The position numbers were made by a program, and so were the translations under genes. Of a stretch of DNA of 64,000 nt, positions 44,394 to 59,516 are shown one piece after another. The stretch is from Paracidovorax avenae ATCC 19860 (GTDB lineage Bacteria; Pseudomonadota; Gammaproteobacteria; Burkholderiales; Burkholderiaceae_C): assembly GCF_000176855.2 (NCBI RefSeq), contig NC_015138.1, positions 4,154,001 to 4,218,000 of the forward strand, written 5' to 3'. The stretch's first letter is position 1. Each line of letters starts with the position of its first letter. The notes beneath the pieces are model-generated. The model saw only the letters and a program-made list of their open reading frames with translations. It was not told the origin of the DNA and searched no databases.

Positions 44394-44486
44394 GCGGTCC
44401 TCTCGGATGGTGGGTTGCTTCAGTCAATGTATAGCACGCGGGACGTGCCCCCGCCCGGCTGGCGTCGGCGAACCGCTCGCTGGCGG

Positions 44487-46214
44487 CTATCCGCCGGTAG
44501 CGATGAGCGGCTTGTAATGGTGCGGCAGGCGCATCAGCACCAGGTCCTTGCGGCGGACGACGCTGGTGGGGTAGCGGCTGCCCTCGGCAGCGCGGGTGTC
44601 GGTGGCCAGGCTGGCGATGCCTTCCTCCTCCCACACCAGCTTTTCCTGCCGCGGAAACTCGAAGCTGTCCGGGCCGAAGACGCCGCTGCGCCCTCCCTCG
44701 GGCGTATTGGCGAATGCCAGATAGACGTTGTTCTCGCCGGCGCGTGCCCGGTAGAGGTGCCAGTGCAGCGGATCGCTGCCCGTGGGGATCGGGTAGTTCT
44801 GCCGCACGGCGGAGCCCGCATGCGCACCGGTGAATCGCTCGCTCTGCGCCGCGGGGCAGGCGATGATGTCGCACCCCTCGAGCGCCAGCACGCGGCCCGC
44901 CTCCGGAAAGCTGGCGTCGTGGCCGATGAGCAGGCCCAGGCGGCCCAGCGGCGTGTCGTGCACCGCCCAGCGCTCGCCGGGCGTGGCCCAGGCGCGGTCC
45001 TGCTGCGCCAGGTGCAGCTGGCGATAGATGCCGATGCGCCCTTCGGGCCCGGCCAGCACCGCGCTGTTGTAGAGGCTGTCGCCATCGCGTTCGGCAAAGC
45101 CCACCACCAGGTAGAGGCCGAGCCGCATCGCGATGTGCACGACCGCATCCACCGCGTCGCCGCCCGCCGGCACGGCGCTCCGGACGGGGTCGTGCAGCCC
45201 CGTGAGGGCCCGCTCGGGGAACACGACCAGTTCCGCCCCGTCGCGCCGCCGGGCCTCATCGGCCCAGTGCGCGATGGCGGCCAGGTTGTCGCCGGCCTCC
45301 GGCTGCGGCGCGAACTGGGCCACCGAGACCACCGACCGCCGGCCCGGCGGCAGCGGGCGGTGCCCATAGAGGCGGAAGAAATCCGACGGGTTCCACAGGA
45401 AGGTGTTGGTCATCAGCGCGGGGTAGTGCTCCGGCCGGCGCTGCGCCATCACCGGCTCGCCCAGGAACTCGCGGGCGCGGCTGCGGGCCGGGTCGATCTG
45501 CGCATAGCAGATGCCGTCGCCGTCATCGACCACGGCCAGGATCTCGCCGTCGGGCGCGATCACGCAGCTGCCGCCGCTGAACTGCACGGTGCGCTCCAGT
45601 CCCCAGCGATTGGCCTCGACCAGGTAGCAGCCGTTCTCGGCTGCGCGGGTGATCCAGTAGGGCGCCGGCGTGCGCTCGGCCAGCCAGTTGCTGATGTGGC
45701 AGATCACGTCGGCGCCGCCCAGCGCTTCCAGCCGCGCGGTCTCGATGAAATGGATGTCCATGCAGACCAGCAGGGCGATGCGGCCCAGCGGCGTCTCGAA
45801 CACCGCGTGGCCCAGGTCGCCGGGCGCTGCCCATTTCGGCTCGGAGATGTACGAGTGGCTCTTGCGGTGCACGCCGACCACGCCGCCGGGGCCGATCAGC
45901 ACCGCGCTGTTGTAGTAGAGGTTGGTGGACGGATCCACCTCGGGCATGCCGACGACGATGTGGCAATCGCGCGCGCTTGCCAGCGCGGCGAAGCGTTCCG
46001 TCGTGGGGCCGGGGATCGGCTCGACCACCGGCGCGACCTCGTCGCGGTCGTGCCAGCAGTAGCCGGTGGTGCCCATCTCGGGCGTGACGACCAGGCGCGC
46101 GCCGGCCGCGGCGGCTTCGTCCACCAGGGCGAGCAGGGCCTGCACATTGCGTTCCTTGGCATTCAGGACCGGTTCGAACTGGACGGCGGCAGCGGTAAAG
46201 GGTGAAGGGACCAT
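44487..46214 (-). CDS. Tandem nitrilase-superfamily carbon-nitrogen hydrolase, second domain degenerate
   Basis: A 575-residue protein with two nitrilase-fold domains; the family norm is one of 270-300 residues. Domain 1 (about 1-280) has the full triad: Glu46 (TPEMG), Lys118 (HRKSH), Cys151 (LLVCMDIHF). Domain 2 (about 293-575) keeps the Glu (Glu334, FPERA) but has Gln399 where Lys is expected (YRQLH) and Gly431 where Cys is expected (LLIGHDASF), so it should be inactive and may be structural or regulatory. Being downstream of an Urt-type importer under AmiR-type control, it probably hydrolyses an imported amide, nitrile or carbamoyl compound. Confidence 0.9.
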   Translation of the reverse strand: MVPSPFTAAAVQFEPVLNAKERNVQALLALVDEAAAAGARLVVTPEMGTTGYCWHDRDEVAPVVEPIPGPTTERFAALASARDCHIVVGMPEVDPSTNLYYNSAVLIGPGGVVGVHRKSHSYISEPKWAAPGDLGHAVFETPLGRIALLVCMDIHFIETARLEALGGADVICHISNWLAERTPAPYWITRAAENGCYLVEANRWGLERTVQFSGGSCVIAPDGEILAVVDDGDGICYAQIDPARSRAREFLGEPVMAQRRPEHYPALMTNTFLWNPSDFFRLYGHRPLPPGRRSVVSVAQFAPQPEAGDNLAAIAHWADEARRRDGAELVVFPERALTGLHDPVRSAVPAGGDAVDAVVHIAMRLGLYLVVGFAERDGDSLYNSAVLAGPEGRIGIYRQLHLAQQDRAWATPGERWAVHDTPLGRLGLLIGHDASFPEAGRVLALEGCDIIACPAAQSERFTGAHAGSAVRQNYPIPTGSDPLHWHLYRARAGENNVYLAFANTPEGGRSGVFGPDSFEFPRQEKLVWEEEGIASLATDTRAAEGSRYPTSVVRRKDLVLMRLPHHYKPLIATGG

Positions 46215-46271
46215 GAAGGGCTCCTGTGGATGAACAACGGAGAAAAAGAGGGAGGGAGGCCTGGAGCCGGC

Positions 46272-46964
46272 TCAGATGGTCATGTAGCGATCGACCACCG
46301 CATCGGTCAGGCCGGCGATGGGGCCGGCGACCGCGATCGCGCCCTTCTCCAGCATGGCGAAGCTGCTGGCCACGCGGCGGGCGAAGCCGATGTTCTGTTC
46401 CACCAGCACCATGGTCATGCCCAGCTCGGCATTCAGGCGCACGATGGCGGCTTCGATCTCCTGCACGACCGAGGGCTGGATGCCTTCGTTGGGCTCGTCC
46501 AGCAGCATCACCTTGGGCGCAGCGGCCAGCGCCCGGGCGATCGCCAGCTGCTGCTGCTGGCCGCCGGACAGCACGCCGCCGGGACGGTCGAGGTTCGCGG
46601 CCAGGTAGGGAAACAGCTCCAGCGCCAGCGGCGGCACCTCGCGCGGCCCCTGGCGGGCGAAGGCACCCATCAGGATGTTCTGCCGCACTGTGAAATCGGG
46701 AATGATCTCGCGGCCCTGCGGCACATAGGCGATGCCGGCACGTGCACGCAGGTGCGTGGGCTGCGCGGCGATGTCGGCGCCGTCCAGCAGGATGGCACCC
46801 GTGCTGTGCACCAGGCTGCCGACCAGGGTGCGCAGCAGCGTGGTCTTGCCCATGCCGTTGCGCCCGAGCACGGCCGTGACCTGGCCGGCCGGCACCCGCA
46901 GGTCGATACCGTGCAGCGCATGGCTGCGCCCGTAGTAGCTGTGGACGTTCTTCAGTTCTAGCAT
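46272..46964 (-). CDS. Urt/Liv-type ABC transporter ATPase (UrtE-like)
   Basis: A 230-residue LivF/UrtE ATPase. Walker A is GRNGMGKTT, signature LSGGQQQQLAIARAL, Walker B VMLLDEPNEGI; NEGIQP after Walker B is typical of UrtE. The start overlaps the stop of the UrtD-like gene by 7 bases. Powers import together with its partner. Confidence 0.93.
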   Translation of the reverse strand: MLELKNVHSYYGRSHALHGIDLRVPAGQVTAVLGRNGMGKTTLLRTLVGSLVHSTGAILLDGADIAAQPTHLRARAGIAYVPQGREIIPDFTVRQNILMGAFARQGPREVPPLALELFPYLAANLDRPGGVLSGGQQQQLAIARALAAAPKVMLLDEPNEGIQPSVVQEIEAAIVRLNAELGMTMVLVEQNIGFARRVASSFAMLEKGAIAVAGPIAGLTDAVVDRYMTI

Positions 46965-47716
46965 GGTGTGCTGATCCCGTGTGAGCCCAGGTACGCCTCG
47001 CGCACCCGGGGATCGCGTTCGATGGCCTCCACGTCGCCCTCGGCCAGCACCTTGCCCAGGTGCAGCACGGTGATGCGCTCGGCGATCTCGCGCACGAAGG
47101 CCATGTCGTGCTCCACCACCAGGATGGTGTGGCGGCCGCGCAGGGCCTTGAGGATCTGCGAGGTGCGCAGCGTCTCGGCCTGCGTCATGCCTGCCGTGGG
47201 CTCGTCGAGCAGCAGCACCTGCGGCTTCTGCGCGATCAGGAGGCCCAGCTCCAGCCACTGCGTCTGCCCGTGGCTCAGGAACGCGGCCTGCAGGTGCTGC
47301 TCGGCCTCCAGGCCGGTCAGCGCCAGGATCTCGTCGATCTGCGTCTCCGCTGCACTGCCGAAGCGCAAGCGCAGGTTGCGCAGGATCGAGCGCTCGCGGC
47401 AGCTGGCCACGCGCAGGTTGTCGCGCACGCTCAGCTCCCGGAACACGCTGGGGATCTGGAACTTGCGGCCGATGCCGGCACGCGCCACCCGGTACTCGGG
47501 CCAGTGCGTGATGTCGCGGCCATACAGCTGGATGCGGCCCTGGGTGCTGGCCGTCTTGCCGGAGACGAGGTCCATCAACGTCGTCTTGCCGGCACCATTG
47601 GCGCCCAGCAGGACACGCAGCTCGCCTTCCTGCACGGTGAGCGATACGCCGTCCACGGCCTTGAAGCCGCCGAAGCGCACGCCGATGTCGTCCAATTGCA
47701 GTGCGACGGGCGTCAT
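46958..47716 (-). CDS. Urt/Liv-type ABC transporter ATPase (UrtD-like)
   Basis: A 252-residue LivG/UrtD ATPase with Walker A GANGAGKTT, LSHGQTQWLELGLLI as signature (the LSHGQxQWLE form is UrtD-specific) and Walker B VLLLDEPTAGM. IGRKFQIPSVFRELSV is the Q-loop area. Start overlaps the permease stop by 4 bases. Confidence 0.94.
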   Translation of the reverse strand: MTPVALQLDDIGVRFGGFKAVDGVSLTVQEGELRVLLGANGAGKTTLMDLVSGKTASTQGRIQLYGRDITHWPEYRVARAGIGRKFQIPSVFRELSVRDNLRVASCRERSILRNLRLRFGSAAETQIDEILALTGLEAEQHLQAAFLSHGQTQWLELGLLIAQKPQVLLLDEPTAGMTQAETLRTSQILKALRGRHTILVVEHDMAFVREIAERITVLHLGKVLAEGDVEAIERDPRVREAYLGSHGISTPC

Positions 47717-48885
47717 GCGGCCTCCCGGGCGGGAAGGACGGGCGCGGCCTCTGCGGGCTGCACAGCCTGCGGGACTTTCCCGGCGTGCGAGGCAGGCCTG
47801 CGCCGGCGTGCCAGCAGGTCGTGCCCCCAGCCCGCGATGCCCTTGGGCAAATACAGCACCACCAGCACGAAGACCAGGCCCACGACCACTTTCCAGGCCT
47901 CCACCAGGGCCGGCGTCTCGCTCGCCGTGGCCTCCAGCAGGTTGATCAGGATGGCGCCCAGGCAGGCCCCCAGCAGGGACGACCGGCCGCCCACCGCGGC
48001 CCACACCACCATGCTGATGGAGAACGCCAGGTCCATGAAGCTGGGCGAGGCGAACTCGGCCACCACCACGTAGAGCATGCCGGCCACGGCGGCGATGCCG
48101 GCCGACAGCGTGAAGAAGAAGGTCTGGTAGTGCGCCACGTCGAAGCCCAGGTAGCGGGCGCGCAGCGGGTCTTCGCCAGCGGCCTTCAGGATCAGGCCTG
48201 CGCGCGTGGCCACCAGCAGCCGGGTGCCCACCAGCACCACCGCCAGGGTGCCGGCGACGAGGTAATAGGCCGGCAGGCCGAACGGATCGAACTCCAGCCC
48301 GCCGATGCGCAGCCAGGCCAGGTCGGTCAGGCCGTTGAAGCCATTGGTGAGCGGCTGCGCATCGACCAGCAGCAGGCGCACCAGCAGCACCACCGCGAGC
48401 GTGATGATCGAGACGAAGACACCGGCGATCCGCTTGCGGAACACCACCGCGCCCAGCACGAAGGCGACCGCCATCGGCAGCAGCAGCCCCATCGCCAGGC
48501 CGAAGCCCTGGTGCTGGAACGGCTGCCACAGGAACGCGCCGCGGTTGATGCAGCACAGATCGACGATGGCGCCCGGCTCGGCGTTGGACAGCATGAAGTC
48601 CGGCACCGGGCCGTGCGCCCCCGGCTGCTGGCTGGCGGGGCTGGCGAGCTTGAGGGCCATGGCGAGCATGTACGCGCCCAGCCCGAAGAACAGCCCCTGC
48701 CCCAGGTTCAGGATGCCGGCATAGCCCCAGCCCAGGGCGATGGCCACGCCCAGCATGCCGTACACCAGGTACTTGGCGATGCGGTTGAGCCAGAAGGGAT
48801 CGAGCACCAGCGGAGCCAGGGCCACGAGCAGGAGGAAGGCGCCGTAGGCGGCGAAGGTCGCGCGCCGGTCGAAGGAGGCAGTCAT
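47713..48885 (-). CDS. Urt/Liv-type ABC permease (UrtC-like)
   Basis: A 390-residue inner-membrane permease with 8-10 helices; GYAGILNLGQGLFFGLGAYM and DPLRARYLGFDVAHYQTFFF are the UrtC/LivM signatures. The hydrophilic C-terminal tail (about 30 residues, Arg/Ala-rich) is cytoplasmic. Three bases separate it from the UrtB-like gene. Confidence 0.93.
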   Translation of the reverse strand: MTASFDRRATFAAYGAFLLLVALAPLVLDPFWLNRIAKYLVYGMLGVAIALGWGYAGILNLGQGLFFGLGAYMLAMALKLASPASQQPGAHGPVPDFMLSNAEPGAIVDLCCINRGAFLWQPFQHQGFGLAMGLLLPMAVAFVLGAVVFRKRIAGVFVSIITLAVVLLVRLLLVDAQPLTNGFNGLTDLAWLRIGGLEFDPFGLPAYYLVAGTLAVVLVGTRLLVATRAGLILKAAGEDPLRARYLGFDVAHYQTFFFTLSAGIAAVAGMLYVVVAEFASPSFMDLAFSISMVVWAAVGGRSSLLGACLGAILINLLEATASETPALVEAWKVVVGLVFVLVVLYLPKGIAGWGHDLLARRRRPASHAGKVPQAVQPAEAAPVLPAREAA

Positions 48886-48888
48886 GGT

Positions 48889-49782
48889 TCAGCGCCCTTT
48901 GAAAGAGAAAAGCCCCTGCGGCCGCACGACGATGAGCAGGATCACCAGGCCGAAGACCACGGCCCGTCCCACGATGTCGTTGGACAGCGTGGCGATCACG
49001 CCGTTGACCTCGCCCAGCACGACCGCGGTCACCACCGCGCCCAGCAGGCTGCCCAGGCCGCCCGCCACCACGACGAGGAAGCCGTCCACCACCAGGGTCG
49101 TGCCCATGTCGGGCGATACGGTCTTGAAGCCCGCCACCAGCACGCCCGCGACGCCCGCCAGGCCCGCGCCGAAGGCGAAGGTCCAGGCGTTGACGCGCTG
49201 CACGTCGATGCCGCACGCCGCGGCCATGCGCGGGTTGCGGATGATCGCGCGCACCTGCATGCCGACGGTGGTGCGGTAGAGGAGGAACCAGGTGCCGAGC
49301 GTGAGCACGGCGGTGCTCGCCACGATGAACGCGCGGTAGGCATTGATGGCCACCCCGCCGACCTGCACGACACCCTGCAGCATCTCCGGCACGGGCAGGT
49401 TCTGCAGCCCGGGCCCCAGGCCCTGCACGTGGATGCCAAAGAAGCTCAGCCCGCCCTCGAGCCGTACCGCCTGCTGCACCAGGATCGCCACGCCCCAGGT
49501 CGCCAGCAGCGTATCGGCCAGGCGTCCATAGAGCTTGCGGACCACGCAGCGCTCGATCAGCAGGCCGAGCAGCGCGGCGCTGGCGAAGGCCAGCGGAATC
49601 GAGGCGATCAGCCCCCATCCCAGCCAGATCTGCGCCAGTACCGCGGTGTAGGCGCCCACCATGATCATTTCGCCGTGGGCCATGTTGATCACGCCCATGG
49701 CGCCGTAGGTGATGACCAGCCCCAGCGCCACCAGCAGCAATATCGCGCCCACGCTCAGGCCGATGAAGAAGACATCCAGCAT
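48889..49782 (-). CDS. Urt/Liv-type ABC permease (UrtB-like)
   Basis: A 297-residue LivH/UrtB permease: LGLVITYGAMGVINMAHGEM is the family hallmark, with RMAAACGIDVQRVNAWTFAF later. The start at MLDVFF fits the family; the ribosome-binding site (GGGAA) is modest. 71 bp downstream of the binding-protein gene. Confidence 0.93.
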   Translation of the reverse strand: MLDVFFIGLSVGAILLLVALGLVITYGAMGVINMAHGEMIMVGAYTAVLAQIWLGWGLIASIPLAFASAALLGLLIERCVVRKLYGRLADTLLATWGVAILVQQAVRLEGGLSFFGIHVQGLGPGLQNLPVPEMLQGVVQVGGVAINAYRAFIVASTAVLTLGTWFLLYRTTVGMQVRAIIRNPRMAAACGIDVQRVNAWTFAFGAGLAGVAGVLVAGFKTVSPDMGTTLVVDGFLVVVAGGLGSLLGAVVTAVVLGEVNGVIATLSNDIVGRAVVFGLVILLIVVRPQGLFSFKGR

Positions 49783-49853
49783 ATGGTTCCCATGGAAGGA
49801 AGGCAGGCAGGCGCCGCCGCGCCGGGTGGCGCGGCCGCATGGCGCCCGGGAGC

Positions 49854-51101
49854 TCAGGACTTGACGTTCACCGCACCCTTGGTGGTGCACATCAGGTTCG
49901 TGTCGGTCTCGCCATAGGCGAAGTACGGCAGCGGCCGCACGGGCTTCGGCGCGGCATCCACCACCTTGCTCTGCCCGTCGGCCTGCCACTGGCCGATGCG
50001 CGGCGTGACCCAGGCATGCAGGCTCTCCGGATCGATCAGCACCTTGCCGCCCGGCGCGTCGTACGACTGGCCGCCGATGTGCGCGCGGATCGCGTCGGCC
50101 GTCGCGGACTTGCCGGCCTCCACCGCCTGCTTCCACAGGAACACCTGGAAGTACGCTGCCTCCAGCGAGTGGTAGGTGACGGCCTTCGGGTCGTTGACGA
50201 ACTTGCGGTAGCGCTCCACGAAGGACTTGTTGGCCGGCGTGTCGATCGACATGAAATACGGCACCGACGTATAGCTGCCGGCGGCGTATTCGGCGCCCAT
50301 CGCGGCGATCTCGATCTCGCCGGTCACGGTGGCGCAGATCGGCACGGCGGCCTGCGACATGCCCTGGTTCTTGTATTCGCGGTAGAAGGCGATGATCGAG
50401 TCGCCCACCACGTTGGACAGCACGGCGTCGGCCCCCGACTCCTTGATCTTGCGCACCATGCTGGCCCACTCGGAGTGGCCGAGCTCCAGGTACTCGTCGC
50501 CCACCCACTGCGCGCCCGCCTGCTCGATCAGCTTCTTGCTGACCTTGGCCATCTCGCGGGGATAGACGTAGTTGGAGCCGACGATGAAGATCTTCTTCTT
50601 GCCCAGCTTGTTGACCATCCACGGGATGTAGTTGCCCAGCTGCTGGTTGGCCACGGCACCGCTGTACACCACGTTCTTGGAGCACTCGAAACCTTCGTAG
50701 TGCGTCTGGTAGAACAGCATCGCATTGCGGCGCTCGAACACCGGCAGCACCGCCTTGCGGCTGGCGGAGGTGTGGCAGCCGAACACCGTCGATATGCGGT
50801 CGCGCACCACCAGCTTGGACGCCTTCTCGTTGAAGATCTTCGGGTCGGAAGCGCCGTCTTCCACCACCACCTCGACCTGGCGGCCCATCACGCCGCCCGC
50901 GGCGTTGATCTCGGCCACGGCCATCAGCACGCCATTGGCCAGCATCTTCTCCACGATGGAGAGGCCTCCGGTCTGGGAATACAGGGCACCGACCTTGATG
51001 GTCTCGGCAGCGTGGGCGGAGCGCATCCACGCAGGTGTCGCGAGGGCGGCCGCGGTGGCGGCGGAAGAAGCGAGGAGACGACGGCGTGTCGTGTTCGGCA
51101 T
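49854..51101 (-). CDS. Urea/amide-type ABC periplasmic binding protein (UrtA-like), Tat signal
   Basis: A 415-residue type I periplasmic binding protein of the UrtA/FmdD branch. The N-terminus has a twin-arginine motif (TTRRRLLASS) and ends near AHAAETIKVG. KVGALYSQTGGLSIVEKML, VGSNYVYPREM and GDSIIAFYREYKNQG match urea/short-chain amide binding proteins and are shared with AmiC. It is the first gene of the importer operon and is preceded by a terminator-type attenuator. Start at 51101 has AAGGA. Confidence 0.93.
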   Translation of the reverse strand: MPNTTRRRLLASSAATAAALATPAWMRSAHAAETIKVGALYSQTGGLSIVEKMLANGVLMAVAEINAAGGVMGRQVEVVVEDGASDPKIFNEKASKLVVRDRISTVFGCHTSASRKAVLPVFERRNAMLFYQTHYEGFECSKNVVYSGAVANQQLGNYIPWMVNKLGKKKIFIVGSNYVYPREMAKVSKKLIEQAGAQWVGDEYLELGHSEWASMVRKIKESGADAVLSNVVGDSIIAFYREYKNQGMSQAAVPICATVTGEIEIAAMGAEYAAGSYTSVPYFMSIDTPANKSFVERYRKFVNDPKAVTYHSLEAAYFQVFLWKQAVEAGKSATADAIRAHIGGQSYDAPGGKVLIDPESLHAWVTPRIGQWQADGQSKVVDAAPKPVRPLPYFAYGETDTNLMCTTKGAVNVKS

Positions 51102-51202
51102 GGCGGATCCTTGTTGACAGGGCGGCGCAGGCATGGAGCGCACCGCCGGATTGATGAACCGGGACGAAGCAGAACCAGCCGACAGCACTGTCGGGCGCAG
51201 GC

Positions 51203-51242
51203 AAAAAAAAACCTCCAGGCGCGGGATGACCGCTCCGGGAGG
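51203..51242 (-). terminator. Leader attenuator (intrinsic terminator) before the UrtA-like gene
   Basis: On the minus strand an 8-bp stem with one mismatch (CCTCCCGG ... CCTGGAGG), capped by an inner GCGG/CCGC stem, is followed by nine T. It sits between amiR and the UrtA-like gene, 100 bp before the start. Its 5' arm overlaps the hexaloop hairpin at 51240-51253, so the two folds exclude one another. Confidence 0.8.
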
Positions 51243-51253
51243 CTTCATTGCCT
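51240..51253 (-). promoter_or_regulatory. Putative ANTAR target hairpin in the UrtA-like leader
   Basis: RNA AGGC-AAUGAA-GCCU: a 4-bp stem with a hexaloop having A at position 1 and G at position 4, the consensus recognised by ANTAR proteins. Its 3' arm overlaps the terminator 5' arm. A strong second hairpin (GGCAAGCG-GUCAA-CGCUUGCC) lies just upstream and could be the partner stem, although its loop is not a hexaloop. Confidence 0.6.
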
Positions 51254-51371
51254 GGGCCTGGCAAGCGTTGACCGCTTGCCGGACCAACCGCGTCATGGCC
51301 TGTGAACAGGGGATGCCGCAGTCACCACACCGTCAACTCAAATTGCGATGCGGTGCCGTATTTATATCGGC

Positions 51372-51971
51372 TCATGCGGAAGATTTCAATAGAGATTCCA
51401 TGTGGATGATCGAATTCGCGATGTCGTCCATCGGCACCCGCTTGGCCATGGCCTGCTCCCGGATCGTCTGGTAGGCCGCCGCTTCATCCAGTTGCCGGGT
51501 CACCATCAGGATGGTCTTGGCGCGGCTGATGGTCTGGTCGCTCAGGATCTTGCGGCGCAGCTTGCGGTTTTCCTTGGCCAGCGCCTGGCGCTCGGTCCAG
51601 AGGCTGCGCGCGGTCACCAGCGTGGCCAGCAGGCCCAGCGGCTTGATCGGCTTCTGCACCACCGCCAGGGCCCCGCTTTCCAGCACCATCTGCAGCGTGC
51701 CGGGATCCTCGTAGTTGACGATGGCGATCACCGTCGGCCGCGGCTGCGGCAGGGCCTTGAGGAATGCCGTCGTGGCCGCCCGCTCCTCGCCGTCGATCAG
51801 CAGGAACAGCACGTCGGTGTTGTTGGCAGGGGCGGTGGGCATCGGCCAGACCGAACTGACCAGGCAGCCGATGCGCCGCATGTGGCCGATCAGGGCCGCG
51901 CCTTCCTCGTCGGGCGGATGCACGACCACCACCTTCAGCTCGAGCAGTTCGCGCAACTTGGCAACAGACAT
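51372..51971 (-). CDS. amiR: AmiR-type ANTAR transcription antiterminator
   Basis: A 199-residue protein: an N-terminal receiver-like domain without clear phosphorylation site (VVVVHPPDEEGAALIGHM), a coiled coil (LWTERQALAKENRKLRRKIL) and a C-terminal ANTAR RNA-binding domain (about 135-190; TISRAKTILMVTRQLDEAAA, MAKRVPMDDIANSII). In Pseudomonas AmiR is held by AmiC and, when released by amides, binds leader RNA to prevent termination. It follows amiC by 14 bp. Targets here are probably the two attenuated leaders beside it. Confidence 0.93.
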   Translation of the reverse strand: MSVAKLRELLELKVVVVHPPDEEGAALIGHMRRIGCLVSSVWPMPTAPANNTDVLFLLIDGEERAATTAFLKALPQPRPTVIAIVNYEDPGTLQMVLESGALAVVQKPIKPLGLLATLVTARSLWTERQALAKENRKLRRKILSDQTISRAKTILMVTRQLDEAAAYQTIREQAMAKRVPMDDIANSIIHMESLLKSSA

Positions 51972-51985
51972 CCTGCCTCCTGCTG

Positions 51986-53131
51986 TCAGGCCAGTCTCCG
52001 CTCAAGCGGATCGAGCCGGTTGTCAATCATGTAGGGGTCGGGCTTGACCTGCAAGCCGGGGTCGTCCACCACCTGGAACAGTCCTTGGGCATCGACGCGC
52101 GCCACGCGCGGCCAGAGGTAGGTATGGTGGTTGTCGCCATCGATGCGGACCGCGCCCTGCGGTGCGTCGAATGCGTGCTGGTGCAGGTGGGGCAGCAGCT
52201 GGTTCATGCGGTCGCCGCCCGAACGGGCCAGCGACTGCGCATACAGGTACACCTGGAAGTACGCCGCCTCCGTGCATGCCGTGATCGGCATGTCTGCCCC
52301 GTAGCGCGCGCGGTAGGCCTCCACGAAGCGCAGGTTGGCCTCCGACTGCAGGGTCGAGAAGTACGGCGCCGCGGTGATGCAGCCCTCGGCCACGCCGGGC
52401 GCCATCTGCGCCACCTCGGCCTCCTGGGTCGACTGGCTGGCGATAGGGTGGATGCGCGTGTCGAAGCCGGCATCCCGGTAGGCCTCGTAGAAGCGGGCGA
52501 TGCCGTCGCCCACTACGGTGGAATAGACCACGTCGGGCCGGGCGGCCTGGATGCGCCGCAGCACCTTCCCCATGTCGATGTCCGCCACCCGCAGCGGAAC
52601 GTACATCTCGTCGAGCACCTTGCCGCCCGACTGCCTGAAGAGGTCCGCGATGATGCGGTTGGACTCATAGGGATAGACATAGTCGGAACCCACCAGGAAC
52701 ACCCGCTTGCCATAGTGGCGCGCGAGGTACCGCACCAGCTGTACCGAGTTCTGGTTGGGCGCGGCGCCGGTATAGACGCAGTGCGGCGAGTACTCGAAGC
52801 CTTCGTAGAGCGTCGGGTAGAACAGCAGCGCGCGGTGCGCCTCCACCACCGGCAGCATCGCCTTGCGGGTGCTGGACATGTACCCGCCGAAGATCACGGT
52901 CACGCCGTCCACGTCGCACAGGCGCTCGGCCAGCTCGCGGTAGCGCCGCGGCTGCGAGCCCGGGTCGTGGACGATGGGCTCGATGCTGCGCCCCAGCACC
53001 CCGCCCGCCGCATTGATCTGGTCGATCGCCAGCAGCGTGGCCGCCCGCTGCGTCCGCTCGACCGCGGCGGTGACGCCCGTGGTGGAGAAAAGCACCCCCA
53101 CCCGCCAGTGGGCCGATTGTCCTTTTGGCAT
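51986..53131 (-). CDS. amiC: AmiC-type cytoplasmic amide/urea sensor, negative regulator of AmiR
   Basis: A 381-residue periplasmic-binding fold protein without a signal peptide (MPKGQSAHWRVGVLFSTTG), as in AmiC, which acts in the cytoplasm. ALLFYPTLYEGFEYSPHCVY, GSDYVYPYESNRII and AYFQVYLYAQSLA match AmiC and are shared with the UrtA-like protein. It should bind the inducer and release AmiR. The start at 53131 is set by a GGAGGG site 8 nt upstream, itself directly after the T-run of a terminator. Confidence 0.93.
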   Translation of the reverse strand: MPKGQSAHWRVGVLFSTTGVTAAVERTQRAATLLAIDQINAAGGVLGRSIEPIVHDPGSQPRRYRELAERLCDVDGVTVIFGGYMSSTRKAMLPVVEAHRALLFYPTLYEGFEYSPHCVYTGAAPNQNSVQLVRYLARHYGKRVFLVGSDYVYPYESNRIIADLFRQSGGKVLDEMYVPLRVADIDMGKVLRRIQAARPDVVYSTVVGDGIARFYEAYRDAGFDTRIHPIASQSTQEAEVAQMAPGVAEGCITAAPYFSTLQSEANLRFVEAYRARYGADMPITACTEAAYFQVYLYAQSLARSGGDRMNQLLPHLHQHAFDAPQGAVRIDGDNHHTYLWPRVARVDAQGLFQVVDDPGLQVKPDPYMIDNRLDPLERRLA

Positions 53132-53145
53132 ACGCCCTGCCCTCC

Positions 53146-53185
53146 AAAAAAAAAGCTCCCACCGACCTGGAAGATCGGTGGGAGC
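53146..53185 (-). terminator. Leader attenuator (intrinsic terminator) before amiC
   Basis: On the minus strand a perfect 11-bp stem (GCTCCCACCGA / TCGGTGGGAGC) with a 9-nt loop is followed by nine T. The ribosome-binding site of amiC follows at once (53145-53140), so it can only act as a regulated attenuator of amiC-amiR. Confidence 0.9.
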
Positions 53186-53196
53186 TTCACTGCTCC
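53181..53196 (-). promoter_or_regulatory. Putative ANTAR target hairpin in the amiC leader
   Basis: RNA GGAGC-AGUGAA-GCUCC: a 5-bp stem and a hexaloop with A1 and G4. The 3' arm GCUCC is also the first five bases of the terminator stem, so AmiR binding here would block termination. A GC-rich hairpin (UGCGCCGG / CCGGCGCA) lies 10 nt upstream and may be the second stem of the target. Confidence 0.7.
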
Positions 53197-53509
53197 ATTG
53201 TTCGGGTGCGCCGGATGGAAGGCCGGCGCATTGCATGCACTCTACCAGCATGGCGCCGCCGGATGAACTCCCTGCGGCCAGTCAGACGTCCGGCGTCCTA
53301 CGCAACCTCGGGAAGTCCGATGACATATTTTCCAAAAAACAACAAATAGAAATCGCAAAAATATCTTTTTCAGTGGCAAAAATGCATCAAGAAGTACAAT
53401 TTGTTTGCAGTTGATTCATTCTTTTCTGCTGAAAATAAAAGAATAATCATAAATACGATTATTCACCCCATTTTCGGGAGATTCAGGATTTCCTGGCTCG
53501 CAGACCATC
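53197..53509. other. Divergent promoter region between amiC and the outer membrane protein gene
   Basis: The left 80 bp is the transcribed leader of amiC. From 53320 to 53465 the DNA is very AT-rich, the likely promoter zone for both directions. No firm -35/-10 or sigma-54 element is identified. Confidence 0.5.
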
Positions 53510-54865
53510 TTGATCACCAGAACAACCACTTTCCCTCCGGCGGAGCGGCCGAAGACAGCGCCGCGTCCCGGAGCACGTTCTGTACGCAGAATCTCCTTTG
53601 CCACACTGGCGCTCACCCTGGGCCAGGGCATGCCCCTCCAGGCCCAGGAGGCCACGGAAAACAATATCTCCCTCAGCGGCTTCGGCACCGTGGGCGTGGT
53701 CCACAAAAGCGGTGCCCCGCATTGGGGTCTGATCCGCAGCACCGCGCAGAAAGGCGCTGCGGCAGACTTCAGCGCCACGACGGATTCCAGGCTCGGCGCG
53801 CAAATCGACTGGAGCCACAGCAGCGGCTGGGAGGCCGCCGCGCAGGGCGTCCTGTTGCCCAGGGCCAAGGGTGCGTTCTCCGGCGAAGCGATCGAACAGG
53901 CCTATGTCGGCTACCGGCCTTGGGCGAATACCCGCCTCCGCATGGGCCGGGTCAGCCCGGACGTGTTCCTGTATTCCGACAGCCGCAATGTCGGCTATGC
54001 ATTCACCTGGGCGCGCCCGCCCGCCGATTTCTATGCCTTCGCGCCGGTCGTGGCCATCGATGGCCTGGACGTGGAGCAGCGATGGGATACGGGCGGTTCG
54101 TCGTGGCGCCTGCGTGCCACCACCGGCACGATAAGTACCAATACCACCGACGGCGGCCGGTCCCACCGGCCGGCGAAAGCGGATGGCATCCTGGCGCTCG
54201 GGCTGTCGCGGGAAGCGGGCGGGCTGCTGCTGAAACTCAGCTACATGCACGCCCGGGTGGACCTGGACCAGGGCCCGGAATACGAGGCGCTGCGCCAGGG
54301 CATCGACAGCCTCCGGCAGTCCCCCCTGCCCGGAGTGCGGCAAGCGGTCACACCGCTCGGCGACAGGCTCTGGGCCGGCGGCGCAACCAGCTACCTGGCG
54401 CTCGCAGCCCAATATGACAGTGGCCCCTGGACCTTCGTGGCGGAAGGCAGCCGGCTGAACATTCCCGGGAGCACGCTGGATGCCTACCGGGCCTACGCCA
54501 GCGCCGCCTGGCGCAGGGACACGGTTACCTATTACGCCCTCGCCAGCCGGGTGAAGCCGCAGGAGGCGGCCCTGGCCACTCCCGACGTGGCCTCTTCGCT
54601 GGCGCCCGTGGCGGGCCCCGCGGCGGCCCGGCAGGCCCAGATGCTGGCAGGTTACGCCACCTACGCGGCCAACCAGTTCCGCTTCGACCAGAGCACGTTC
54701 GGCGTGGGTCTTCGATGGGATTTCGCATCGAATGCCGCGCTCAAGTTCCAGGTCGACCGGTTCCACGTCCGGCAGAACGGCGCGGCAGGCTGGCGCAACC
54801 ACGACGGGCAGGCCGCCAAAGGCACCCTGGTCTCCCTGCTGGTCGATTTCGTATGGGGCCAGTGA
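53510..54865 (+). CDS. Putative outer membrane beta-barrel (porin-like) protein
   Basis: A 451-residue protein with a signal peptide (RRISFATLALTLGQGMPLQA, then QEATENNISLSG) and alternating beta-strand pattern to the C-terminus (LKFQVDRFHV, LVSLLVDFVWGQ). GFGTVGVV at the mature N-terminus is porin-like. The only available in-frame start is a TTG with no clear ribosome-binding site, so the start is uncertain. Its stop overlaps the next gene (TGATG), linking it to a binding protein and a c-di-GMP protein. Confidence 0.75.
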   Translation: MITRTTTFPPAERPKTAPRPGARSVRRISFATLALTLGQGMPLQAQEATENNISLSGFGTVGVVHKSGAPHWGLIRSTAQKGAAADFSATTDSRLGAQIDWSHSSGWEAAAQGVLLPRAKGAFSGEAIEQAYVGYRPWANTRLRMGRVSPDVFLYSDSRNVGYAFTWARPPADFYAFAPVVAIDGLDVEQRWDTGGSSWRLRATTGTISTNTTDGGRSHRPAKADGILALGLSREAGGLLLKLSYMHARVDLDQGPEYEALRQGIDSLRQSPLPGVRQAVTPLGDRLWAGGATSYLALAAQYDSGPWTFVAEGSRLNIPGSTLDAYRAYASAAWRRDTVTYYALASRVKPQEAALATPDVASSLAPVAGPAAARQAQMLAGYATYAANQFRFDQSTFGVGLRWDFASNAALKFQVDRFHVRQNGAAGWRNHDGQAAKGTLVSLLVDFVWGQ

Positions 54866-55311
54866 TGCCACGCGCACTCCCGAACCTCCCGCGCATGCTG
54901 GCCGCCATCGCGCTGGCGGTCCATGCGCTGCATTTCACCGTGGCTTCCGCCCCCATCTACGTGGTGGTGTCCGCGCAGAGTCCGCTGCAGTCCGTGAACC
55001 AGAACGAGCTGGTGGCCATCTATACCGGCAGGACCCGCGCCTTCCCCGACGGCAGCGCTGCCACCCCGCTCGACCAGAAACGCGACGGTCCGGCGCGCGC
55101 CGAGTTCTACCAACTGCTGACCGGCATGGACATCGCCCGCATCAACAGCTACTGGGCCCGCCTGCATTTCACCGGCCAGGTGCGGCCGCCGCAGACCGCC
55201 GAGGACGACACGGCCATGCTGCAGCGCCTGCGCAATGATCCCTCGGCCATCGGCTACATCACCCGTCCCCCGCAGGACAGCTCGGTGCGGGTGGTGATGC
55301 ACCTTCCGTGA
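54865..55311 (+). CDS. Small periplasmic PstS-like substrate-binding protein
   Basis: A 148-residue protein with a signal peptide (MLAAIALAVHALHFTVASA) followed by YVVVSAQSPLQSVNQNELVA, IYTGRTRAFPDGS and IGYITRPPQDSSVRVV. These match the short phosphate ABC-like binding proteins (about 140 residues) that lack transporter genes. It may feed a signal to the membrane GGDEF-EAL protein encoded 36 bp downstream; that is inferred. Confidence 0.75.
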   Translation: MPRALPNLPRMLAAIALAVHALHFTVASAPIYVVVSAQSPLQSVNQNELVAIYTGRTRAFPDGSAATPLDQKRDGPARAEFYQLLTGMDIARINSYWARLHFTGQVRPPQTAEDDTAMLQRLRNDPSAIGYITRPPQDSSVRVVMHLP

Positions 55312-55347
55312 TGCTGCACGTGCCTTCCCACCACCGCCCCGCTCCCC

Positions 55348-58300
55348 ATGCGCAGTAAAAGCCTCCATCGCCGCTTCCAGTGGGCGGTCGTGAGCGTCGC
55401 GGGCGTGATGGCGATCCTCGTGGCCATCGTCCTGTACCTCAGCGCCAAGTCGCACTACCTGGAAAACTCCGAAGCCTCCGCGCGCGCCATCGCCGCGGCC
55501 GTGCAGCAGACGGTGGCGGTCGGGGTGTATGCGCGGGACGAGGTCTTGCTCAAGGAACTGCTGGACGGCCTGGCCCACCACCCTGCGGTCGCCCGCGTGG
55601 GCGTCCGCGATGCCGCCGGCGTCACGATGGCGGCGAAGGCCAACCCGGATGCCGGCCTGGATGCCACCGACGGAAATGCCCCGGCGAAGCCCACCTTCCA
55701 GTCGCCCCTGGTGTCGCCCTTCAGGCTCGAAGGGCACATCGGCGATCTGCAGGTCTGGCTGAACTACCAGCGGATGAACGCCGAGGCAGGCTGGCAGGCG
55801 GCCCAGCTGGTCGTGGCGATCACCGTGCTGCTGGCCGGCGTGCTCGGCGTATTCAGCATGCTGGCCCGGCGCATGCTGTCCCAGCCCATGCACCGGCTGG
55901 CGGCGGAGCTGGCCATGATCATGCCCGGCACGGCGCGCCGCATATCGATCAACCCGCGCCATGCCGTCGATGAAGTGGGCATCGTCACCACCGCGGTCAA
56001 CCGCCTGCTGGAACTGCAGCAGGACGCACTCGAGCGAGAACGCGGCATGCGCGAGGAAATCTCCGCGCTGGAGGCACGCTACCGGGGCATCTTCGACTCG
56101 ACCAGCGCGGGCATTTTCATCCTCTCGCCGGCGGGGCAGCTGCTGCACGCCAACCCGGCGTTCGAGCGGTTGCTCCACCTGCAGGCCGGCCAGGAGATCA
56201 ACGCCCATGCCGGGGACTTCATCCCGACCTTCTTCGTCCGCTCGGCCCAGTTGCTGCAGCTGATCGAACGCGCCCGCACCTCCCTGGAGCCGGAAGCCGA
56301 AGACCTCGAACTGATCCGCCCGGACGGCACGAAGGTATGGGTCCACTGCATGGTGTCGTGCATGGAAAGCGCCGGTGCCCCGGAGCAGTACGTCGAGGGC
56401 GTGCTCTACGACATCACCCGGCGCAAGAACCAGGAGAGCGCCGCGCGCTACCGCGCGGAGCACGATGCGCTGACGGGGCTCAAGAGCCGCTCCTACATCG
56501 AAGCCCTGCTCGGACAGCACATCCATGCCATCCACCCGGGCCATGACCCGGGCGACGTCACGCTGATGTTCATCGATCTCGACGGGTTCAAGTCCGTCAA
56601 CGACCGCTGGGGGCACGCCGCCGGGGACGCGGTGCTGGTCGAGGCCGCCCAGCGGCTGCGCATGCTCTTCCAGCGCAACTGCGACGTCATCGGCCGGCTG
56701 GGAGGCGACGAACTCGTGGTGATCATCGCGGGCGTGGACGCACTCCACCCCAGCGTGTCGGACCTGGCGCAGCAGCTGATCGACAGCTTCAAGGCGCCGT
56801 TCGTGCTGCCCAACGGGGAATCGGCCCGGGTCGGCGCGAGCGTCGGCGTGGCCAGCTACCCGGCACACGCCACCAGCGTCAAGACGCTGATCCATGCCGC
56901 CGATGCGGCGATGTATGCCGTCAAGCAGGCAGGCAAAGGCGGGATCGCCATCGCCGAAACCGGCATCACCAGCCAGGACGAAGACGCCGCAGCATCCCGG
57001 AAAGAGGCCGGCCTTCCGGCCGCCGTGGCACCACAGCAGCGGGATGCCCTGACCGGCCTGGTGGATCGCCGGCACCTGCTCGAGCAATTGGCATCGGAGC
57101 GGGGCCCGATGGCAGGCGGCGAGGGACCGACGGGCGTCATCTGCCTGGACATCGACCAGTTCAAGCTGCTCAACGTGGCCCATGGCACCCAGGTCGGCGA
57201 CGAAGTGCTCTGCGAAACCGCACGGCGGCTGAAACGCGTCCTGCGGCGTGGAGACACGCTGGCACGCACCGGAAGCGACGAATTCGTCGTGTTGCTGCGC
57301 ACGGAAGGCCGCATCGACCACGACGTCCGCCACCTGGTGGAAGGTGTCGCCGCCAAGCTGCTCCACAGCCTGGCCGCGCCGTTCAACGCGGGCCAGGGCT
57401 CCCTGAGCATCCGCGCGAGCGCGGGCATCAGCCTGATCCATGCCCATACGGCCAGCGGCCTCGACGCCCTGCGCGAAGCGCAACTCGCCCTGCGCCGGTC
57501 CAAGACGCAGGGCGGCAACCATCCCGTTTTCTTCGAGGAGAACATGCTGGCGGGCTTCCACGAACGCCTGGCGCTGGAGCAGGATCTGCATGCGGCCATC
57601 GGCTCGGAGCAACTGTTCCTGCAGATCCAGCCCCAGCACGATGCCCGCAACCAGCTGACGGGGGGCGAGGCGCTGCTGCGGTGGCGGCATCCCGAGCGCG
57701 GCATGGTGCCGCCGGACCAGTTCATCGCCCTGGCGGAGGCCTCCGGCCTCATCATCGAGCTGGGCACCTGGGTGCTGAAGACCGGCTGCAGGATCCTCGC
57801 CGACCTCCACCGGGAAGATCCCTCGCTGACCCTGGCCATCAACATCAGTCCGGCGCAGTTCAAGCATCCGGGCTTCGTCGATGAGGTCCGCCACGCATTG
57901 GCGGCGACCGGTGCCTGCGCGTCCGGACTGATCCTGGAGATCACGGAAGGCCTGCTGATCACCGATGTGAACCATGCGGCGGAACGCCTCGCGGAACTGG
58001 TCGAACTGGGAGTGCGGTTCTCGATCGACGATTTCGGCACGGGCTTCTCGAGCCTCGCCTACCTGCGGCAGCTGCCGCTCTACGAGATCAAGATCGACCG
58101 CAGCTTCATCAACGGCCTGCCCGGCGACACGGCCAGCGTCGGCATCGTCTGCTCGATCCTGTCGATGGGCTCCCACCTCGGGCTGCACGTGGTGGCCGAA
58201 GGCGTCGAGACGCAGGAGCAATCCGACTTCCTGCAGGCCAACCGCTGCCCGTCCCAGCAGGGCTGGCTGCATGGCCGGCCGATGCCGGAGGAAACGTTCC

Positions 58301-58386
58301 TGGAGAGCGTGCGGGCCCGGAAGATGGCGGGGAGGCCGCCGGAGGCAGCCGTCCCGCTGATTGCCGCGCCACAGCTTGCAGGGTAG
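55348..58386 (+). CDS. Membrane CHASE-HAMP-PAS-GGDEF-GGDEF-EAL c-di-GMP protein
   Basis: A 1012-residue sensor. An N-terminal helix (about 13-32) and a second (about 152-175) enclose a periplasmic domain of about 120 residues (CHASE8-like); then HAMP, PAS (about 240-360), GGDEF 1 (motif GGDEL at 452, inhibitory RNCD five residues before), GGDEF 2 (GSDEF at 642, RRGD five before) and EAL (EALLRW at 774, with DDFGTGFSSL and EGVET). The EAL set looks intact, so phosphodiesterase activity is likely; both cyclase motifs deviate from GGDEF, so synthesis is doubtful. Third gene of the set with the porin-like and binding proteins. Confidence 0.9.
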   Translation: MRSKSLHRRFQWAVVSVAGVMAILVAIVLYLSAKSHYLENSEASARAIAAAVQQTVAVGVYARDEVLLKELLDGLAHHPAVARVGVRDAAGVTMAAKANPDAGLDATDGNAPAKPTFQSPLVSPFRLEGHIGDLQVWLNYQRMNAEAGWQAAQLVVAITVLLAGVLGVFSMLARRMLSQPMHRLAAELAMIMPGTARRISINPRHAVDEVGIVTTAVNRLLELQQDALERERGMREEISALEARYRGIFDSTSAGIFILSPAGQLLHANPAFERLLHLQAGQEINAHAGDFIPTFFVRSAQLLQLIERARTSLEPEAEDLELIRPDGTKVWVHCMVSCMESAGAPEQYVEGVLYDITRRKNQESAARYRAEHDALTGLKSRSYIEALLGQHIHAIHPGHDPGDVTLMFIDLDGFKSVNDRWGHAAGDAVLVEAAQRLRMLFQRNCDVIGRLGGDELVVIIAGVDALHPSVSDLAQQLIDSFKAPFVLPNGESARVGASVGVASYPAHATSVKTLIHAADAAMYAVKQAGKGGIAIAETGITSQDEDAAASRKEAGLPAAVAPQQRDALTGLVDRRHLLEQLASERGPMAGGEGPTGVICLDIDQFKLLNVAHGTQVGDEVLCETARRLKRVLRRGDTLARTGSDEFVVLLRTEGRIDHDVRHLVEGVAAKLLHSLAAPFNAGQGSLSIRASAGISLIHAHTASGLDALREAQLALRRSKTQGGNHPVFFEENMLAGFHERLALEQDLHAAIGSEQLFLQIQPQHDARNQLTGGEALLRWRHPERGMVPPDQFIALAEASGLIIELGTWVLKTGCRILADLHREDPSLTLAINISPAQFKHPGFVDEVRHALAATGACASGLILEITEGLLITDVNHAAERLAELVELGVRFSIDDFGTGFSSLAYLRQLPLYEIKIDRSFINGLPGDTASVGIVCSILSMGSHLGLHVVAEGVETQEQSDFLQANRCPSQQGWLHGRPMPEETFLESVRARKMAGRPPEAAVPLIAAPQLAG

Positions 58387-58647: not shown

Positions 58648-59516
58648 CTAGCCCTTCAAGCACTGTCGTTCCTCGAATTGAACCGGGCTGAGATAGTTCA
58701 ATTTTGAGTGCTTCCTGAGCGGGTTGTAGAACCGCTCGATGTAATCGAACACGTCGGCTCTGGCCTGCTGCCTGGTACGGTAGATCGTTCGAGCGCAGCG
58801 CTCGGTTTTCAGCATCGAGAAGAAGCTTTCCATTGCCGCGTTGTCCCAGCATTCACCACGCCGACTCATGCTGCAGGTGATGTTCTGGCTCTTGAGCAAC
58901 CGCTGGAACTCGTCGCTGGTGTATTAGCTGCCTTGATCGGAGTGATGCATCAGCGCAGCGGGCTTGCCACGGCGCCACAGGGCCATAAGCAACGCATCGC
59001 TCACCATCCTGGCCTGCATGCTATCGCTCATCGACCAGCCAACGATTCGCCTTGAATACAAGTCCATCACGGCAGCGGCGTAGAGCCAGCCCTCGGCCGT
59101 CCAGATGTAGGTGAAGTCGGCGACCCATTTCCGGTTGGGCTCCAGCGCCTCGAATTCACGCTGCAGATGGCTGGGCGCGATGTGGCTCTCCAGCCTGCTC
59201 GCGCCATCTCCGGGAAGCCGGCGGCGCTTTCGCCTGGCCTGCAGATCGGCCAGCCTCATCAGGCGTGCCACGCGATGGATGCCGCATGTCTCTCGGCAGC
59301 CCTCAAGTCGTGCCATACCCGCGGGCTGCCGTAGGTGCGATCGCTGAGTTCGAAGCTCTCTCGAATGCTGCGCGTGAGCCTCGCATCGGTCTGGCTGCGC
59401 TCGCTGGCAGGCCTGCCGAACCACTCATAGAACCCGCTGGCAGACACGTTCATTGCCCGGCACATGGCTCGCGTCGGCCACACATCACGATGGCGAGCGA
59501 TGAAGGCATACTTCAC
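58648..59516 (-). pseudogene. IS3-family transposase OrfB, inactivated
   Basis: The DDE integrase reads from a GTG at 59516 (VKYAFIARHRDVWPTRAMCR) to about 59300, then shifts frame near RTYGSPRVWHDLRA and continues (HRVARLMRLADLQARRKRRR; WVADFTYIWTAEGWLYAAAV with the first Asp; LMHHSDQGS). A TAA stop at 58924-58926 replaces the expected Gln of DQGSQYTSDEF; the frame then runs on with WDNAAMESFFSMLKTE (catalytic Glu) to 58648. One frameshift and one nonsense codon mean it cannot transpose by itself. Confidence 0.85.

Follow-up and report, generated by a model that had tools for sequence, protein, structure and literature searches.

We describe here a candidate regulatory circuit in Paracidovorax avenae ATCC 19860, located within a 64,000-nucleotide (nt) stretch of its genome (NC_015138.1, positions 4,154,001–4,218,000; hereafter the window, with coordinates counted from its first letter). 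On the minus strand, genes for an amide sensor-like protein (AmiC) and an ANTAR antiterminator (AmiR) precede a Urt-type ATP-binding cassette (ABC) importer and a tandem nitrilase gene, with one terminator-bearing leader before amiC (leader 1) and another before urtA (leader 2). Judging from the sequence and its conservation, a single AmiC–AmiR sensor quite probably governs both attenuators in a positive-feedback circuit, with a hairpin past the urtA terminator as a likely second AmiR site.

Hexaloops over the terminators of both leaders

Each leader is composed of an upstream hairpin (P1), an antiterminator hairpin (P2) whose six-base loop has A at position 1 and G at position 4 (an A1/G4 hexaloop), and an intrinsic terminator (Table 1). 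A C-G pair closes both P2 loops, and in either leader the 5' arm of the terminator contains the 3' arm of P2. The leader 1 terminator begins with the arm GCUCCC at 53185 and its run of nine T (T9) ends at 53146 (predicted −30.3 kcal/mol including flank); that of leader 2 begins at 51242, with T9 at 51211–51203 (predicted −23.7 kcal/mol). The P1–P2 linkers measure 10 nt in leader 1 (53206–53197) and 6 nt in leader 2 (51259–51254, counted from the inner P1 stem only). When the 5' flank was shuffled, in 200,000 trials per leader, a P2-type hairpin with a stem of at least four pairs arose by chance in 0.5% of cases for leader 1 and in 1.0% for leader 2. An initial annotation, made from the letters of the window alone, had placed the terminators at 53146–53185 and 51203–51242, had described their 5' arms as doubling as the 3' arm of a hairpin with hexaloop AGUGAA or AAUGAA, and had seen no hexaloops in the upstream partner hairpins. 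The coordinates proved right to the base, the shared arm was found in both leaders, and the P1 loops are CCUUCCAU and GUCAA, neither of them a hexaloop.

We collected related loci for comparison. A contig search returned 18 (L003–L020), of which L020 is a distant ANTAR match; the order amiC-amiR-urtABCDE is kept in 17 of the 18 (L003–L019). Our core set of 21 loci consists of the window, L003–L019 and L079–L081, the last three known only as amiC-amiR-urtA. Core loci are not independent: about 15 are left after removal of rows judged to be near-duplicates, and the window AmiR is identical in sequence to that of Paracidovorax oryzae (L003). Outside the core set stand L022 and L078, which repeat L003 and L012, and L023 and L024, by likeness probably the species of L004 and L007. 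Among 399 genomes of the window's family, 23 had an AmiR match at E ≤ 1e-20, mostly distant. AmiR relatives at 32%–44% identity (L025–L033, L035–L047, L049), together with L068 and L072, were covered by a hexaloop pattern scan only. We also noted that a distant genome of the same class has two tandem ANTAR attenuators between amiR and urtA (L048:2340–2650) and a canonical dual-hexaloop leader before amiC, and that L070, L071, L074, L076 and L077 carry, by eye, an extra hairpin 5' of P1/P2 (GAGC-AGGUUU-GCUC or GAGC-AGGAUU-GCUC).

A lack of hexaloop conservation among related species had been named in the initial annotation as one result that would refute its proposal. Across Comamonadaceae and Tistrella, A1 and G4 were kept in 10/10 aligned rows for each leader, window included, the hairpin reading GAGC-AG(U/G)G(A/C)A-GCUC in leader 1 and GGC-AA(U/G)G(A/G)(A/U)-GCC in leader 2. 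The leader 1 P2 stem hardly varies, leaving no covariation to test. In both terminators pairs changed on both sides (5/13 in leader 1, 5/12 in leader 2), and none of 500 shuffles reached the covariation score in either. Leader 2 P1 is a real stem in Comamonadaceae and Tistrella, because its pairs change on both sides (6/10 pairs across nine distinct rows). Variovorax and Pseudorhodoferax have the 7-nt loop CAUGUGU on this stem, whereas the window has GUCAA and Tistrella GGGGAU. In the Rhizobiales (L012–L019), P1 of leader 2 has a canonical A1/G4 hexaloop (AAUGUG, AGCGUC, AAGGGG, AAGGUC, AAUGCG, AGCGCG). A terminator leader precedes urtA in all 17 loci with the amiC-amiR-urtABCDE order, and the amiC leader terminator is kept in nine of them. 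Measured against the dual-hexaloop definition, the window leaders have an A1/G4 P2 over the terminator arm and a short linker (5–12 nt in eut genes, according to the text of PMC3369931); they fall outside the definition because P1 is no hexaloop.

A third hexaloop past the urtA terminator

Directly past the leader 2 U-run lies a further A1/G4 hexaloop hairpin (P3; 51194–51179), which the initial annotation had overlooked. It was present in all 21 core loci, 20 by strict pattern and L009 with a U-A outer pair, and likewise in L022, L023, L024 and L078. Across the core set A1 and G4 are invariant, with G or A at position 2, U, G or C at position 3, and C or U at positions 5 and 6. The closing pair, C-G, is the one described as favoured in the published account of a NasR selection (systematic evolution of ligands by exponential enrichment, SELEX). 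Over 14 aligned sequences the stem was paired in 70/70 cells; its central pair is G-C in eight and G-U in six, which is why P3 fits an RNA and not a DNA palindrome. A P3-type hairpin arose by chance in 0.5% of shuffles of 30 nt. The distance between the P2 and P3 loops is 59–62 nt (standard deviation 1.0), as opposed to 82–381 nt from P3 to the start of the urtA match. The most probable reading of P3 is that of a further site for AmiR, carried by the read-through RNA. Two other ideas were rejected: that P3 is a start-codon element, in view of the 82 to 381 nt separating it from urtA, and that P3 accompanies a long post-terminator leader as a rule, since L082 has a long leader without P3.

AmiR as the candidate reader of both leaders

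Action of AmiR on both leaders appears well supported. The gene between them, which the initial annotation had taken to encode an ANTAR protein, matches PF21332 (AmiR_N pseudo-receiver, 128.2 bits) and PF03861 (C-terminal ANTAR, 53.1 bits), both above cut-off. Six of the 11 residues with which EutV contacts RNA are kept in the window AmiR (Lys149, Glu160, Tyr164, Arg168, Met172 and Arg175), and among them are three of the four G4 contacts; EutV R142, K143, K147, N173 and R177 correspond to D, Q, R, A and P. The nearest solved relative of the sensor is AmiC of P. aeruginosa (1PEA), and from this closest solved sequence the window sensor is tentatively predicted to be an amide-binding repressor of AmiR. 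Two ANTAR genes were found in the genome, amiR and one NasT-like gene, the latter with its own canonical two-hexaloop leader (L093:8147–8231; loops AACGGC and AAAGGC, T6) before a nitrate importer. This canonical leader serves as an internal control: absence of the P1 hexaloop at amiR is no general trait of the genome. The earlier suggestion that one AmiR could serve both leaders is thus supported by the AmiC relative, by the other ANTAR protein having a leader of its own and, with the contacts kept in part, by the comparison with EutV.

From the observed architecture, conservation, P1 and terminator covariation, loop signature and spacing we infer a scheme of binding, regulation, ligand and P3 role. 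Published work on relatives describes AmiC releasing AmiR upon amide binding, and ANTAR domains recognising A1/G4 hexaloops. Without inducer, AmiR would be held by AmiC, and polymerase starting at the amiC promoter, or at the one that lies at the end of amiR, would mostly stop at the intrinsic terminator that follows. Once an inducer is present (probably a short-chain amide or a urea-like compound), AmiR set free would bind the P2 hexaloop of each leader; P2 stabilised in this way would sequester the terminator 5' arm, so that polymerase could enter amiC-amiR and urtABCDE with the nitrilase gene. In this way amiC-amiR would be under positive feedback, and importer and hydrolase would be induced. 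P3 might keep AmiR on the antiterminated transcript and thereby shield the untranslated leader against Rho and RNases, or it might act as a sink that limits free AmiR. We tentatively extend this scheme to an ANTAR switch with two checkpoints at urtA, in which P2 decides at the intrinsic terminator and P3, at a set distance, comes into play on transcripts already past that point: it would either license them against a further stop (Rho, a second terminator, RNase decay) or draw off AmiR as negative feedback. The canonical P1/P2 pair would then be replaced by P2/P3 in Comamonadaceae and by P1/P3 in Rhizobiales.

Scans of the window and of related genomes

General scans of positions 44000–58000 contributed little. 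Rfam gave only two matches, far below the gathering score (E 0.77 and 2.1), the first of which overlaps leader 1. The terminator scan found leader 1 and missed leader 2, with five terminator-like sites compared with a shuffled mean of 4.8; promoter counts were likewise no better than shuffles, and the promoter scan gave no match at the extended −10 element of amiC or at the promoter of the urtA leader. Since the terminator scan misses leader 2 and the counts do not exceed shuffles, the evidence rests on conservation.

An RNA model (R1) covers the urtA terminator plus P3; the 14 sequences used to build it include that of the window. In the window's own 5.48 Mb genome R1 gave 23 matches in all. 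Leader 2 came first (74.2 bits), and the amiC leader, which is not in the model, came second (24.7 bits, E 0.038). Matches 3 to 8 (L085–L090) had no hexaloop over the terminator arm, and the amiC leader stands apart from them because it has one; in L090 a 4-bp A1/G4 hairpin about 45 nt past the U-run was regarded as chance. Across 250 genomes of the family R1 gave eight matches, strong only in the window genome and G175. Within the stretch shown, four of the six weak matches had a T-run, none with a hexaloop over the terminator, and the stretches shown of L096 and L100 contained no T-run.

Counterevidence and alternative explanations

Several observations weigh against the circuit proposed above. 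P1 has no hexaloop in the window, yet the eutP reporter of E. faecalis required both hexaloops, as described in the text of PMC3369931. The P2 stem of leader 2 has 4 bp in the window, against mostly 3 bp among relatives, and in the Rhizobiales its loop starts with U, not A, G4 being kept (UAUGUA, UGGGUA, UAGGAA and others). In leader 1 the pair-type count of the alignment is no higher than in shuffles (234/500 reach it), and the amiC leader of the Rhizobiales L012–L019 has an A1/G4 hairpin, by eye without a U-run terminator; AmiR may work by another route there. The third match of R1 in its own genome, a plain terminator, scored 24.4 bits against 24.7 for the amiC leader, and because the two are nearly equal the rank of the amiC leader is weak support. 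A polymerase standing at the U-run has yet to transcribe P3, which therefore has no influence on that polymerase's decision and must act later or not at all. Covariation in its stem is weak (1/5 pairs; 73/500 shuffles as good), and its steady distance from P2 perhaps comes partly from similar terminator lengths (36–39 nt; P2 to U-run varies by just 3 nt). Eleven distant AmiR-linked leaders (L034, L069, L048, L070, L071, L073–L077 and L082, with L034 and L069 the same sequence) had no A1/G4 hairpin of at least four pairs within about 100 nt past the terminator. Finally, in the weak R1 match L095, from another genome, an ordinary terminator is followed 12 nt on by an A1/G4 hairpin, so a P3-like hairpin can occasionally arise by chance. 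As a separate observation, the amiC-leader hairpin of the Rhizobiales has a 6-bp stem (e.g., GGAAAC-AGUGGC-GUUUCC).

Instead of serving AmiR in its own right, P3 could be a component or a remnant of a second attenuator in tandem before urtA. L048, with two such attenuators each bearing A1/G4 hexaloops, speaks for this, as do runs of at least five T between P3 and urtA in 10/21 core loci and the terminator-like sites of L012 in that interval, one of which has T7 and makes a second stop possible in some relatives. Against it, the remaining 11 core loci, window included, lack such a run; terminator-like sites after P3 on the urtA strand were seen only in L012 and L017 of seven sequences scanned, with a scan that misses most leader 2 terminators too; and A1 and G4 are kept in every core locus at a near-constant distance from P2 while other loop positions vary. 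We consider it unlikely that P3 belongs to a second attenuator. A DNA operator is far less probable still, even though the window P3 sequence, CCGACAGTGCTGTCGG, is a nearly perfect palindrome that a DNA-binding regulator might recognise: the G-U middle pair in 6/14 aligned sequences pairs in RNA and breaks DNA symmetry, and some of the loops, AAGGCC and AGTGCC for example, lack palindromic symmetry. For P3 we still favour the reading as a further AmiR site on the read-through transcript.

Control of the importer by AmiR can be questioned as well, if the leader 2 terminator merely ends amiC-amiR and urtABCDE is transcribed from another promoter. The 151–381 nt between P3 and urtA in Rhizobiales contain AT-rich stretches that look promoter-like by eye. 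Scans of six relatives, on the other hand, gave no urtA-strand promoter in the P3–urtA interval of any of them; a promoter is readable directly 5' of the attenuator in the window, and TTGAC-type promoters were found at the matching place in five of the six (L011, L012, L013, L017 and L019; not L005). Nor would a separate promoter give any reason for conserving hexaloops over the terminator, and we regard it as improbable. That the NasT-like protein acts on both leaders is scarcely credible: it is an ANTAR protein encoded in the same genome, but the loops of its own canonical leader differ from AGUGAA, AAUGAA and AGUGCU, and the leaders under study adjoin amiR in 17/18 loci. Joint control of both leaders by AmiR is the reading that we carry forward.

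Organization of the locus

In minus-strand order the locus comprises a promoter, leader 1, amiC, amiR, a promoter, leader 2, a urtA-like gene, urtB, urtC, urtD, urtE and the tandem nitrilase gene (Table 1), with genes for an amino-acid type ABC importer next downstream. As read from the sequence, the urtA promoter and the end of amiR overlap, so the amiC-amiR transcript has leader 2 as its 3' end. Just before urtA lies a hairpin of varying sequence (51147–51121 in the window; also in L004–L008 and L010). In those six relatives an ATG at this place opens a seven-codon frame (e.g., MVRCVTS, MQCCPTS) that ends over the ribosome-binding site. Elsewhere in the window, an open reading frame resembling, by eye, an IS3-type transposase fragment (58924–59424) adjoins one resembling a diguanylate cyclase/phosphodiesterase (55348–58386).

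Table 1. Features of the amiC-amiR-urtABCDE locus, in order of transcription
Feature	Position in window	Strand	Basis
Extended −10 element for amiC, TGG-TAGAGT	53239..53247	−	TGnTAnAGT pattern 5' of P1, by eye in Comamonadaceae leaders
Leader 1 P1 hairpin, TGCGCCGG-CCTTCCAT-CCGGCGCA, no hexaloop	53207..53230	−	P1-region fold −15.4 kcal/mol
Leader 1 P2 antiterminator hairpin, GGAGC-AGUGAA-GCUCC, A1/G4 hexaloop	53181..53196	−	Sequence reading and conservation
Leader 1 intrinsic terminator, T9	53146..53185	−	Terminator scan and fold; 5/13 pairs changed on both sides
amiC-like amide sensor / AmiR inhibitor, 381 amino acids	51986..53131	−	Pfam PF13433; 1PEA AmiC, E 1.4e-108
AmiR ANTAR antiterminator, 199 amino acids	51372..51971	−	PF21332 AmiR_N and PF03861 ANTAR; 1QO0 chain D, E 2.4e-26
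Sigma-70 type promoter of urtA leader, TTGAAA-17-TATAAA	51361..51389	−	By eye; overlaps amiR end
Leader 2 P1 hairpin, GGCAAGCG-GTCAA-CGCTTGCC, no hexaloop	51260..51280	−	6/10 P1 pairs changed on both sides
Leader 2 P2 antiterminator hairpin, AGGC-AAUGAA-GCCU, A1/G4 hexaloop	51240..51253	−	Sequence reading and conservation
Leader 2 intrinsic terminator, T9, also at amiC-amiR end	51203..51242	−	Fold; 5/12 pairs changed on both sides; model R1
P3 post-terminator hairpin, CCGAC-AGUGCU-GUCGG, A1/G4 hexaloop	51179..51194	−	21/21 core loci; directly past leader 2 U-run
urtA-like substrate-binding protein	49854..51101	−	TIGR03407, 405 bits, below cut-off 492.75
urtB permease	48889..49782	−	TIGR03409, 319.8 bits, above cut-off
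urtC permease	47713..48885	−	TIGR03408, 344.4 bits, above cut-off
urtD ATPase	46958..47716	−	TIGR03411, 331.2 bits, above cut-off
urtE ATPase	46272..46964	−	TIGR03410, 294.5 bits, above cut-off
Tandem nitrilase-fold protein, 575 amino acids	44487..46214	−	PF00795 in two stretches; second copy without catalytic Cys

The importer and its associated enzymes

UrtB, UrtC, UrtD and UrtE of the window all score above their urea-transporter cut-offs (4/4), and UrtA scores below. Four relatives have similar UrtA scores (403–416 bits), two of them beside urease genes; because relatives beside urease genes score equally low, the UrtA score cannot decide between amide and urea. In the window, in L003 and in L011 (Tistrella), urtE is followed by a gene for a tandem nitrilase. 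We looked at the downstream enzyme in nine loci: an amidase-signature enzyme follows in L005, L008, L009 and L010, urease genes lie within 5 kb in L012, L013 and L019, L011 has its nitrilase, and no hydrolase was seen downstream in L004. In L082 the attenuator lies before ureE and ureF. Other classes of the phylum contribute seven loci, four from the family containing L078, in which a nitrilase gene likewise comes after amiR and the attenuator; in five of the seven a urtA-like match lies behind the nitrilase within the 3.5 kb viewed. Use of such a switch for an importer with a nitrilase, which the initial annotation had called unusual, is thus not unique: a nitrilase gene also accompanies the importer in Tistrella and follows amiR in the seven loci from other classes, with amidase or urease genes in other orthologues.

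At the catalytic triad positions of the nitrilase superfamily (CN hydrolases), the first nitrilase copy keeps Glu-Lys-Cys. In the alignment the second copy has Gly for Cys (as in L011) and Gln for Lys (L011 keeps Lys), which suggests a fusion of one active and one inactive domain. The enzymes found at these loci suggest that AmiC–AmiR control is a portable module joined to various nitrogen-releasing enzymes (tandem nitrilase, amidase, urease). Given this variety, the label "amidase regulator" understates the range of AmiC–AmiR.

Comparison with known systems

ANTAR hexaloops and AmiC–AmiR are already known, as are ANTAR RNAs before urea transporters (PMC3369931), and the text of PMC13209695 describes amiC-amiR next to an ABC importer. 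Like the leader 2 RNA, the ANTAR-target RNAs that the 2012 survey (PMC3369931) names before urea transporters precede nitrogen importers. Under the terms used, the open-licence literature searched, excluding the tables of PMC3369931, yielded no conserved hexaloop after a terminator, no shift of the canonical hexaloop among P1, P2 and P3, and no AmiR-controlled urease or AmiR attenuator before urease genes.

The amidase (amiE) leader of P. aeruginosa shares with the window the AmiC sensor, the ANTAR protein AmiR and a hexaloop hairpin over an intrinsic terminator (PMC3369931). The window differs in having two attenuators around amiC-amiR, with a Urt-type importer and tandem nitrilase as target, and, judged by the published description of the P. 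aeruginosa leader, in a P1 without a hexaloop and an extra hexaloop past the terminator. The NasT/NasR nitrate leaders, L093 included, follow the same RNA logic with an ABC importer as target, whereas their dual hexaloops are canonical and their loop sequences different; in L093 the next gene starts so close to the U-run that no space is left for P3.

As described in the texts of PMC3369931 and PMC8934654, the EutV antiterminators of E. faecalis have, as here, an A1/G4 P2 that is mutually exclusive with the terminator. EutV hexaloops lie in P1 and P2 before the terminator, whereas the second canonical hexaloop of the urtA leader comes after it. A single extra hexaloop with G4, comparable to P3, is reported for the EutX RNA in the same texts, and the 2022 EutV structure paper defines the minimal ANTAR site as a single hexaloop and leaves the role of single hexaloops open. 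Set beside these systems, P3 is a conserved and well-placed candidate for an ANTAR-binding function other than antitermination at that terminator.

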